The notes below the pieces were generated by a model, which ran no database searches, was not told the DNA's origin, and saw nothing but the letters and a program-made list of their open reading frames with translations. From Candidatus Omnitrophota bacterium (GTDB lineage Bacteria; Hinthialibacterota; Hinthialibacteria; Hinthialibacterales; JAKPRU01): DNA of 63,801 nt. The stretch covers positions 1-63,801 of the forward strand of contig JAKQSI010000116.1 of the NCBI GenBank assembly GCA_029570205.1. The letters run 5' to 3'. Shown here one piece after another: positions 7,333 through 62,808 of this stretch. The position numbers were made by a program, and so were the translations under genes. How positions within the stretch are numbered: the stretch's first letter is position 1; the number at the start of each line of letters is the position of its first letter.

Positions 7333-7399
7333 TAGGGCGGGTCGATCCGTGCGCTTGCGAAGGTATATCGGAGGATGAAACGGGAATAAAAAAACGAAC

Positions 7400-7545
7400 A
7401 TCGACGTCGAAGACAGCAGGTGCGCCGACGCGCTGAAATATCCTGCCGAGACCGGGATGCTGTTGACCATAGAACACAGCGTGGGGATCGCTTTCCCTCG
7501 TGGTATTTATGGAAAACCCGGCTTTGGCGCCGGGTTTTTTCGTTA
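7400..7545 (+). ncRNA. Ribosomal protein L10 leader (cis-regulatory RNA)
   Basis: The gap between rplA and rplJ contains the hallmark L10-leader pattern: AGACAGCAGGTGC near 7411-7423 and ATCCTGCCGAGACC near 7440-7453, where GCAGG (7416-7420) pairs with CCTGC (7442-7446). Downstream comes an intrinsic terminator hairpin. In this family the L10(L12) complex binds the leader and lowers rplJL expression. The boundaries are approximate. Confidence 0.85.
7515..7540 (+). terminator. Intrinsic terminator/attenuator at the end of the L10 leader
   Basis: AACCCGGC (7515-7522) pairs with GCCGGGTT (7529-7536) with loop TTTGGC, and the T-run continues to 7540. It ends 47 nt before rplJ. It fits transcription attenuation of rplJL rather than full termination. 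Confidence 0.85.
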
Positions 7546-7587
7546 GAGAAAAAAAGAATCGGTCGTAACGAGAGGAGGTGACGCAAC

Positions 7588-16099: not shown

Positions 16100-16181
<82 letters not shown>

Positions 16182-16262
16182 TTTTCCATTGTCTATTCCG
16201 TCACCCTCAATCCGGTGTATTATGAAGGAAGAAATCCGCAGGTCGGCGCCCACCCCGTCATT

Positions 16263-16282
16263 GACAGGCACGGAGGCCTGTC
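16263..16282. repeat. GACAGGC hairpin preceding the repeat array
   Basis: GACAGGC-ACGGAG-GCCTGTC forms a perfect 7-bp stem with a 6-nt loop. It sits 10 bp before the first array unit. The same hairpin (loop one base different) lies next to the solitary array unit at 62789-62808 in opposite orientation, showing that the two form one composite element. Confidence 0.8.
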
Positions 16283-16290
16283 CCACCAGT

Positions 16291-16828
16291 AGGCCAGGCG
16301 TCTCTGCCTGGCAGCTACCCAGTAGGCCAGGCGTCTCTGTCCGGCAGCTACCCAGTAGGCCAGGCGTCTCTGCCCAGCAGCTACCCAGTAGGCGAGGCGT
16401 CTCTGCCCGGCAGCTAAGTAGGCCAGGCGTCCCTGCCTGGCAGCTAAGTAGGCCAGGCTTCTCTGCCCGGCAGCTAAGTAGGCCAGGCGTCCCTGCCTGG
16501 CAGCTAAGCAGGCCAGGCGTCTCTGCCTGGCAGCTACCCAGTGCGCCAGGCGTCTCTGCCCGGCAGCTACCCAGCAGGCCAGGCGTCTCTGTCCGGCAGC
16601 TACCCAGTAGGCTAGGCGTCTCTGCCTGGCAGCTACCCAGCAGGCCAGGCGTCTCTGCCTGGCAGCTACCCAGTAGGCCAGGCGTCTCTGCCTGGCAGCT
16701 ACCCAGTAGGCCAGGCGTCTCTGCCTGGCAGCCCCCAGCAGGCCAGGCGTCTCTGCCTGGCAGCCACCCAGTAGGCCAGGCGTCTCTGCCTGGCAGCCAC
16801 CCAGTAGGCCAGGCGTCTCTGCCTGGCA
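16291..16828. repeat. Tandem array of 17 hairpin repeat units (33/30 bp)
   Basis: Seventeen units of the form AGGCCAGGCGTCTCTGCC-TGGCAGC plus a short spacer (TACCCAGT, or TAAGT in the shorter ones) run without interruption. The core CCAGGC-GTCTCT-GCCTGG is a 6-bp palindrome with a 6-nt loop. Most units are 33 bp; four near 16414-16507 are 30 bp. Both lengths are multiples of three, so long reading frames stay open on both strands, but I do not treat these as genes. Variation (GCCCGG, GTCCGG, CCCAGC) sits mainly in the right arm. There are no unique spacers, so it is not CRISPR. Confidence 0.9.
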
Positions 16829-16935
16829 AGAGAGGTGGAAAGCACGCTTTCTTCACCCAGTCACCGGCTCTGCAGGAGGGATGCTCGGAATGACGGATAT
16901 GCGGGATATTTCTTAAGAATGAAGGAGATACGAAC

Positions 16936-17277
16936 ATGATTATCGGATCGACTCAAGATGTGAAAGCGCAGGATATTCCGATTGAGGGCGCCAGGAACGC
17001 GACCATCCGAACCATCATCGGGGAGAAGGAAGGCGCGAAGCAGTTTGCCACACGGGTTGTGACGTTGAAGAAGGATGGGATTATCCCGTTGCATTCGCAT
17101 CCGCTCGTCCATGAGCAGGTGATTCTCAAGGGCAAAGGCGCGATTCTAACCCCGGACGGCGAGCGGGAAGTCTGCCCCGGCGATTTTGTTTTTGTGCAAG
17201 TCAACGAGGTCCACGGCCTGAAGAACCTGGGTGATGAGGATTTTGAACTGGTGTGCTGTATCAATCTCATCGACTGA
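16936..17277 (+). CDS. Cupin-domain protein
   Basis: This 113-residue protein is a single cupin barrel with both metal-binding motifs visible: PLHSHPLVHEQVILKGKG (His, His, Glu) and PGDFVFVQVNEVHGLKN (last His). A strong GAAGGAGAT precedes the ATG. The fold often binds sugars or acts as a small sensor or isomerase; the exact job is unknown. Its last 11 bp overlap the convergent methyltransferase gene. Confidence 0.85.
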   Translation: MIIGSTQDVKAQDIPIEGARNATIRTIIGEKEGAKQFATRVVTLKKDGIIPLHSHPLVHEQVILKGKGAILTPDGEREVCPGDFVFVQVNEVHGLKNLGDEDFELVCCINLID

Positions 17278-30322: not shown

Positions 30323-30395
30323 TTGCCACAGGCTGGAAGCCTCTGCCACCCCCTGTGTGTGCCACCCCCTGTGTGCCCACCGCTGTACCCCGTTA
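30323..30395. repeat. CCACAGGCTGGAAGCC repeat and CCCCCTGTGTG copies
   Basis: A copy of the CACAGGCTGGAAGCC-type repeat (30323-30350) is followed by two CCACCCCCTGTGTG units. The cluster fills the space between the giant secreted protein and glnE, just upstream of the glnE start codon. On the minus strand it creates a false N-terminal extension of GlnE. Confidence 0.65.
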
Positions 30396-33300
30396 TCACT
30401 CGGTCGGTGTCGGTGTATGGGTTGGAGTTGGAGCGGGGGTCGGTGTTGGCGTTGGCGTTGGGACCGGGGTTGGCGTCGGTGTCGGGTTGCGCATGATGTT
30501 CCACAGATACAACAGGTCCGCCGGATTGATCTCCCGGTCCGAATCTGGAACCTGATCTCCCCGCTCGCCGGGCCGGACAGCGAAGTCCAGCCAGTCTCGG
30601 ACGAATTGGAATAAGTCGTTCCGGTCTACAACTCCATTGTTGTCCAGGTCTCCGTTATTGGGGGGCAAAGGAGTCGGAGTGGGGGCGAGATCCACAACGA
30701 ACACGTAGCCGAAATCGGCGGAATCGGCGGTGACGGCATTCCCGGCATCGTCCCGAATTCTGACTCCGATAGTTGCATTTGCATTGAGCGGCGCATTATC
30801 GGCGACTGTGGTGGATATCTCGAACTGAACCCGCTGATCGTCCAGGACGACAGGCGGTCCGGGGATGCCCAACGCCGGTTGATCCGGTCGAATGGAGGAA
30901 ACCAGCAAGAACGCCAATGGGGCCTCCACCGGGTCTCCGTTCAGACCGACGACGATACGGGCATGGACCCAGTCGCCGGGAACCAACAGCGGACGCGGAT
31001 AGCCGCCGACTCGCACCGTACGTGTGGAGCTGGTCTGCACAACAAAATCCTCCAGGATCGGCGGACGGGTGTCCGCCCGGATGGTCAGGTCGGTCCAATC
31101 GAACTGCCCCACATCGTCCCGAACCATAAGATACAAATTGATGTCGCTGTAATCGCCCTGTGTAACGATATCTGTCATGTCGGCGACGGTGGCGGAAGCG
31201 TAATAGAATACCTCCCCATCAACCGGCTCATCGACAAGGATGACCTGACCGTTTTCAACCCGGAAGAATCCCTGTTGAATCGGACCGCCTTCACGCGGCA
31301 CTCCTTCCAAGAGGTGGGCATCGAAAACGAAGTCATTCAGGGAGAGAACATCCCCGTTCCATTGACCTTCACCGTCGAGATCCGCACGCACCTGCACACC
31401 GGCGCTGACCGTCACGATATCTCCGGCAATTACCTCATTGAGATAGCCCGGACCGTCGGGATTCGGATACAAAGCCAGTCTGAACGGCGGCAGGCCCGGT
31501 CTGATTTTTCGAAAGATGGAGAGGATCGAGGAGGTGGCGGCGTTGTTCAGCGGGGCAAACAAAGACCCGGCTTTATCGACACCGATTGGATTGGGGTCCA
31601 ACGGGAAATCCGGCCGATTGGCGGCGAAAACCTGGATGACATTCGCTAACGTAGTCATGGCGACGGAGTGGGTACTGAGCAACAACGGAGGTTCCGTTTG
31701 GAATCCATTCCATTGCACGATCAGGTCATCGGGTGCGCCGGGTGCAGGGAATACCCCCGTTGGATGGATTTTCTGCCCGGGTGTGATGTCCTCAATTACC
31801 ACTCCCGATCCCACCACGTCGAACGTGGCGTAGGTCAGGGATGTGGCAGAGGCGAGGGCAGCGTGGTAACTGGGCGAGTCGGGTGGGGCTGTTTCCAGAT
31901 CCAAAAGAATATCTGTCGGTGCACTGGTCAGTGTCGCGGTTAATAGTAGAACATCGCCGGGTTCCAGGTTGGCTGTGAGCAGCGATCCCGGAATTTCCGG
32001 ATCGAAAAGAGAAGCCTTTGTCTGTGGATCGACAAACAAAGAGGCTTCGGGGAATCCGGTCAGGTCTCCCTCTCGGCGGGCTTCCTCCGTCCCGGAGATA
32101 CCGACCTTGAAACGATCCAGAACAGCATCGGTGTTGCTTGCGGCCAGGATCACATTGCCGGCCAGGATATGATATGTGGGACGCGGTCCGAATGTCGGGA
32201 TCTCGGTTGGAAGGGGTGAATTTATTTGAGTGGGAGTTGGCGTGTGAGTCGGCGTATCGGTCGGAGTCAGCGTACCGGTTTGTGTGGGCGAAGGGGTTTC
32301 GGTCAGAACCGGCGAACCGGTCTGTGTCGCCGTCGGAGTAGGGGTGAACTGATGATACCGGGTGGGAGTCGGAGTTCGGGTCGGGGTAGGTGTTACTGTA
32401 GCCGTGTAGGTTGCTGTTGGAGTGGCCGTTGGTGTAGGCGTCACGCCATTCTGGACCTGAAGCGTCACGCCAAACTGGGTCAGATTTTTCGCAATAAAAT
32501 TGCCCGCATCGTCCGTGGCGTGAAGAATCAGTGGGGCGGCCTGTGTCGTGAAGGCTTTCTGCCCGACTGCAAATTGAAACGCGACATCGACGGTATCCGC
32601 CAGGGTCGCATGGGGTCTTAGAACAAACGGTGCGATCAGCCGTTCAGGCGTATCCATATTCGGCGCTTCCAGAGACGCCGTTATCCCATCCAGCGGATCT
32701 CCGTTCAGCTGGATGGTTCCGGTGACAACTACGATATCACCCGGCACGGCGAGATACCGCTTTGTCCCCATCAGGAATGCGTCCCGGGAGAAAATATCGC
32801 CACTGGTAATTTCCGGGGCGAGGGTATCAATGCGGAGCGGGATGGTCTGGACATAAGGCTCGGTCACATCTGCTGTAATCGAGAGGACGATACCGGCCGT
32901 CTCGAACGCACCGTCGGTCGGGACATTTGTCACGCTTCCGACAATGCCCCGCGCGGTCAGCATTCCTTCAATGCCGACGGGTTCTTCGGGAGTACCGGCG
33001 CTTTCCTCTCCAGGTTCCATCTCCCTTGTATTCAGGAAAGCGACATCCTCACTTGGCAGGTCTTCCGGCCCGCCAAGCGGAGTAAAGTCAAAATGAAAAT
33101 CGGTCACTTGGAGCGTGTCTCCATATTCGGCGCTTTCGCCGTCGAGATCTCCACGCACCTCCACGGCGGCCACAATGAGGATTTCATCGCCCATCCGCAA
33201 CTCGAATGAGTTAAGTTGGTCGCCGGTAAGATCATAAGTCACTCCATTCCGAAGTACGGCAAGCATGGCGGGGACCGTTGATCCGGGGACTTCCTGGAAA

Positions 33301-62652: not shown

Positions 62653-62754
62653 CAGGTGTTTCCCTTCATCGTGAGCATGATTGCACGGAGTATCAACCGA
62701 CACTCTTGTAACATCCCCATTGGTGATCGGTCAATGTTCCTCTTCTGCTGACCG

Positions 62755-62808
62755 CCAGGCAGAGACGCCTGGCCCACTGGAGTGGTAGGACAGGCCTCTG
62801 TGCCTGTC
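62755..62808. repeat. Solitary composite hairpin element (founder type of the 16.3-kb array)
   Basis: CCAGGC-AGAGAC-GCCTGG (62755-62772) and GACAGGC-CTCTGT-GCCTGTC (62789-62808) lie 16 bp apart. Read on the minus strand this is the same order and nearly the same sequence as 16263-16308 at the head of the tandem array. Confidence 0.85.

Follow-up and report, generated by a model that had tools for sequence, protein, structure and literature searches.

A head-to-tail array of GTAG-type REPs near a tRNA-Tyr gene in Candidatus Omnitrophota, probably expanded in place from a dispersed REP dimer

The window, that is, the whole stretch of 63,801 nucleotides of Candidatus Omnitrophota DNA that was analysed, contains a tRNA-Tyr gene (16100–16181) preceded by a gene for a HAD-family hydrolase and followed by a long series of short hairpins, on the other side of which lies a small cupin gene (16936–17277). 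The distance from the end of the tRNA is 82 bp to the first hairpin and about 108 bp to the first array unit (110 bp in a preliminary description of this DNA). A similar pair of hairpins stands alone at 62754–62808, and recognised genes lie on either side of both places. A scan of the window with Rfam matched the tRNA and the ribosomal protein L10 leader (7389–7550, with a score just at the Rfam gathering level) and no other family. Elsewhere in the window, short GC-rich tandem repeats occupy 30344–30486, where an open frame of 2286 codons on the minus strand ends.

The array comprises 17 direct copies of CCAGGC-GTCTCT-GCCTGG (16294–16826) behind a first hairpin of the inverted type, which reads GACAGGC-ACGGAG-GCCTGTC (16263–16282; Table 1). 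The number of units is as originally counted and is not due to chance, the expectation being 0.00 (zero matches in 100 dinucleotide shuffles of the window). The spacings had been given as 33 or 30 bp throughout, all multiples of three. This holds for most of them (33 bp eleven times and 30 bp four times) but not for one of 32 bp at unit 14, and unit lengths of 25, 28 and 39 bp at other loci imply that multiple-of-three spacing has no coding meaning. The right end of the outer GTCAT...ATGAC repeat that seems to enclose the array is probably GGAATGACGG, near 16887–16897. The solitary pair had likewise been noticed, at 62755–62808. It does lie on the opposite strand with the order and orientation seen at the array, but the loop of its first hairpin is ACAGAG and its partners are 3 bp more separated (34 versus 31).

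Table 1. REPs and associated sequences in the window
Feature	Position	Strand	Remarks
Left edge, CACCCCGTCATT region	16253..16262	+	Probable remnant of the outer GTCAT...ATGAC repeat, suggested by by-eye comparison
First ('founder') REP, GTGG-GACAGGC-CTCCGT-GCCTGTC on the minus strand	16263..16286	-	Inverted partner in tail-to-tail dimer
17 head-to-tail REPs, GTAG-GCCAGGC-GTCTCT-GCCTGGC	16289..16828	+	Array span including tags; spacers, for example, CAGCTACCCAGTAGG or CAGCTAAGTAGG
Conserved composite-element tail, AAGCACGCTTTCTTCACCCARTCACCGGC	16829..16868	+	At other loci, immediately behind a single second hairpin or many
Solitary second REP, GTGG tag	62754..62777	-	Inverted relative to 62785–62808
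Solitary first REP, GTAG-GACAGGC-CTCTGT-GCCTGTC	62785..62808	+	Inverted relative to 62754–62777

The two hairpins had been described as different. Read from their GTRG tags, however, they are identical at 18 of 25 positions by eye, and at the array locus the tags face each other with two bases between them. To judge from these sequences, both hairpins are one GTRG-tagged REP (repetitive extragenic palindrome), with a 7-bp stem and a 6-nt loop, in opposite orientations, forming a tail-to-tail REP heterodimer, a dimer type that accompanies RAYT transposases. Among 422 distinct units the tag is GTAG in 275, GTGG in 131, GCAG in 14 and GCGG in two; the scan behind these counts required G[TC][AG]G, and the tag is also visible at loci found by the bare hairpin. 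In the same 422 units, which come from the fetched loci and were selected blind to stem pair 2, this pair is C–G in 230 cases, A–T in 143 and T–A in 15. It is thus paired in 93.8% of units as against 50.5% expected from independent columns, an excess that is no significance test because the units share descent. The short palindrome is maintained by compensatory changes, which is a property of GTAG REPs.

High copy number and dispersal, also typical of GTAG REPs, are evident in the genome to which the window belongs (G000; 4.39 Mb in 131 contigs). The bare hairpin, with up to three mismatches, occurs at 561 places as compared with 13 for the reversed control, and the tagged hairpin, with up to two mismatches, at 433 places as compared with none. 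The tagged form is also present in the two congeners, with 140 copies in G002 and 34, the fewest, in G001, and was found in none of the 58 other genomes among the 61 searched, so that its occurrence is restricted to these three congeneric ones. The named records that match a degenerate dimer-core pattern are MAGs of Candidatus Omnitrophota (JAKPRU, JAKPYU), save one contig labelled Nitrospiria (CAKKST010000119.1), whose single match may reflect transfer, mis-binning or chance. A search of viral contigs for the composite element found none. Several contigs terminate within such arrays, which offers one reason for assembly breaks in these genomes.

Three IS200-like genes are present in G000, and one more, fragmented, was found by means of NF047646. 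The product of one of them (C89; 170 amino acids) matches Y1_Tnp and scores above the curated cut-off of NF047646, 'REP-associated tyrosine transposase' (RAYT). It carries HVH and YISKNP motifs, which correspond to the HUH and the catalytic Tyr of a REPtron. On each side of the gene lies an array of first-hairpin type spaced at 38 bp, and each array also includes an inverted unit bearing the second-hairpin loop. Its orthologue in G002 (C302; 90% identity) has the second hairpin on either side and the first hairpin on one side only. REPs of this family therefore flank a RAYT gene in two species, as in known REPtrons, and their position and co-occurrence, in genomes that are fragmented MAGs, suggest that the C89 RAYT moves the REPs of the array. 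No match to RAYTs of the C89 family was found in G001, the congener with the fewest copies, nor were long arrays seen among the G001 loci inspected. More distant RAYTs of the same order and class (approximately 37–43% identity) have their own GTGG-tagged hairpins on either side, against a background of 0.07 such hairpins per kb in the window. A PDB sequence search with the C89 RAYT found nothing.

The RAYT fragments of C126 and the RAYTs of C51 and C48 were rejected as the array-linked RAYT, since they are not flanked by the REP of the array. Apart from the C89 gene, two Y1/RAYT-like genes in G000 sit in different repeats, so that several enzymes could be at work. The second RAYT of the genome (C48:79988-83266), also above the NF047646 cut-off, adjoins tandem copies of another, unrelated hairpin, GGCGGGAGCTGACGCTCCCGCC, which has 35 copies in the genome with up to three mismatches and represents a separate family. 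An IS200-like transposase at C51:62120-65452 lies amid repeated palindromic stretches (CACCGTTTCAACGGTGGG and others) that make up a third separate repeat family. In G002 (C679), an NF047646 domain is found inside a single open frame of more than 1100 codons whose remainder looks by eye like a DNA methylase, so that either a fusion or the insertion of a RAYT is possible.

How the array arose can be approached by comparing loci. According to the preliminary description, the second half of a dispersed composite element was expanded locally, a proposal that the survey of this genome and its relatives upholds. In G000, 96 places show the junction of the two hairpins (up to three mismatches), and 14 show the tail that closes the window array, 11 of them behind a recognisable first hairpin. 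Between first hairpin and tail there is one second hairpin at C78, C79, C86, C20 and C100 (twice), whereas two C52 places have 9 and 18 and the window has 17. The second hairpin is single at about 33 of the sampled loci and repeated seven times or more at no fewer than 15, with a maximum of about 20; these figures come from listed and fetched loci, in which multi-junction loci, listed repeatedly, were collapsed by hand. The first hairpin, often together with the leader and tail, is common to single-copy and multi-copy loci. Array periods differ by locus (25, 28, 30/33, 31–34 and 39 bp) and the spacers are array-specific, with identical spacers in 32.4% of pairs within arrays as compared with 3.9% between arrays (0 of 500 shuffles). 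Array-specific spacers and periods are what local expansion predicts. Within the window array itself, similarity between neighbouring units was not significant (p ~0.15). The 33-bp spacer type is found at several loci and also in a two-copy element of G001, and some arrays may therefore stem from elements that were already duplicated; the duplicated form probably predates the species split and probably served as a seed. Unit numbers running from one to about 20 inside a constant frame provide an unusually clear series for studying the growth of REP clusters.

Alternatively, units may have been inserted singly by a transposase preferring existing REPs, in the absence of any local duplication. 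Insertion of REPs into REPs has indeed been suggested for the unordered clusters of P. fluorescens (PMC3116915), and dense arrays are present at the RAYT locus itself. The regular spacing, the locus-specific spacers and the uniform orientation of the window units, which are bounded by a constant first hairpin and a constant tail, leave this explanation only a slim chance.

The orthologous tRNA-Tyr site was compared in the two relatives. In G002 (C1155), the left flank, the tRNA and the first hairpin are as in the window, followed by about 10 units and a different right flank. In G001 (C489), the genes on either side are those of the window and no REP is present; instead, a different GTCAT-bounded palindromic repeat is found. 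This GTCAT...ATGAC repeat (GAGATTGCCACGTCGCTTCGCTCCTCGGAATGACG type, at about 1950–2150) has ends similar to those that border the REP array of the window. Unit number thus changes among relatives, which had been proposed as a test, from 17 in the window to about 10 and none at one site. The collinear tRNA-side flank in a relative that also carries an array argues against an assembly artefact, though MAG assembly may have collapsed some copies, so that their exact number may differ.

The same comparison weighs against the suggestion that transcription of the array, downstream of tRNA-Tyr for instance, gives a chain of stem-loops that binds a protein or stabilises RNA, and that selection keeps the array for this role. 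The hairpins fold well (z of -4.4 for a single unit, folded as DNA), their stem pairs covary, and for REPs elsewhere transcription is often plausible (PMC3733652). Covariation is, however, equally expected if a RAYT recognises single-stranded DNA, comparable arrays occur at many unrelated loci, and a search of the + strand near the array, admittedly a weak test, found no promoter-like site. Since the orthologous site, moreover, lacks the array in one relative and has a shorter one in the other, we regard such a selected scaffold as very improbable. Any effect of the array on nearby transcripts is most likely incidental. An interpretation as a CRISPR-like array or as repetitive protein-coding sequence, which short palindromic direct repeats and open frames of 234 and 290 codons running across the region might bring to mind, is contradicted by the spacer and period data and can practically be dismissed, because the spacers are mostly 6–21 bp and recur within arrays instead of being unique, unit lengths of 25, 28 and 32 bp elsewhere disrupt any frame, and the family is dispersed across tens of loci.

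We consider with good confidence that the array derives from a RAYT-mobilised dimer of GTAG-type REPs, the second REP of which was then amplified in place by slippage or unequal recombination. The dispersed unit pairs two related REPs tail to tail, often within a longer leader and tail. The C89 RAYT would cleave the tagged single strand, a reaction known in vitro for the enzymes of E. coli, Stenotrophomonas and Marinomonas (PMC8266576), and copies would spread as single-stranded DNA. One dimer would have been inserted downstream of tRNA-Tyr, and its second REP multiplied to give 17 units. As the loss of five units from a REPIN cluster in E. coli suggests (PMC8049555), the number of units would change through slippage or through unequal recombination of one direct copy with another. 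Repeated insertion would then not be the origin of the array. A bolder proposal, which we find rather doubtful, is that the life cycle of this REP family regularly includes a second stage in which one member of the dimer is amplified directionally, head to tail, possibly by the RAYT itself, giving arrays of 15–20 units at many loci that change fast between species.

Since the sequence features by which GTAG REPs and REPtrons are recognised are found here (PMC3733652, PMC3116915), the element is assigned to a known kind. No literature linking 'Omnitrophota' with 'repetitive extragenic palindromic' was found in our search, and RAYT-linked GTAG REPs are now extended to this group. Members of the GTAG REP superfamily (Di Nocera et al. 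2013, PMC3733652) likewise have a GTAG/GTGG tag, a 6–9 bp stem, subfamilies with covarying stems and an association with RAYTs, and they also form dimers with the tags inside (TT heterodimers, 1–2 bp apart in some families). The comparison with the 24 published families covers these features; the 6-nt loop exceeds most of theirs, and Omnitrophota are not among the phyla named in the text of that study. The REPINs and RAYTs of Pseudomonas fluorescens SBW25 (Bertels and Rainey 2011, PMC3116915) are similar in that an inverted REP pair is dispersed and clusters adjoin the cognate RAYT, and in forming ordered tandem arrays, including evenly spaced arrays of single REPs at two places. In the present element, by contrast, the partners are 2 bp apart with the tags inside, the largest arrays consist of 17–20 single REPs in one orientation, and the whole element often lies within a further leader and tail. 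The BIMEs of E. coli with TnpA-REP (PMC8266576) share two inverse REPs, tandem copies and a tyrosine HUH transposase, whereas the arrays described here are without the conserved stem bulge and mostly repeat one REP, not the pair. The array of the window is therefore no new system but belongs to an element of a known kind that is present here in many copies, and in which the long head-to-tail arrays are what is unusual.
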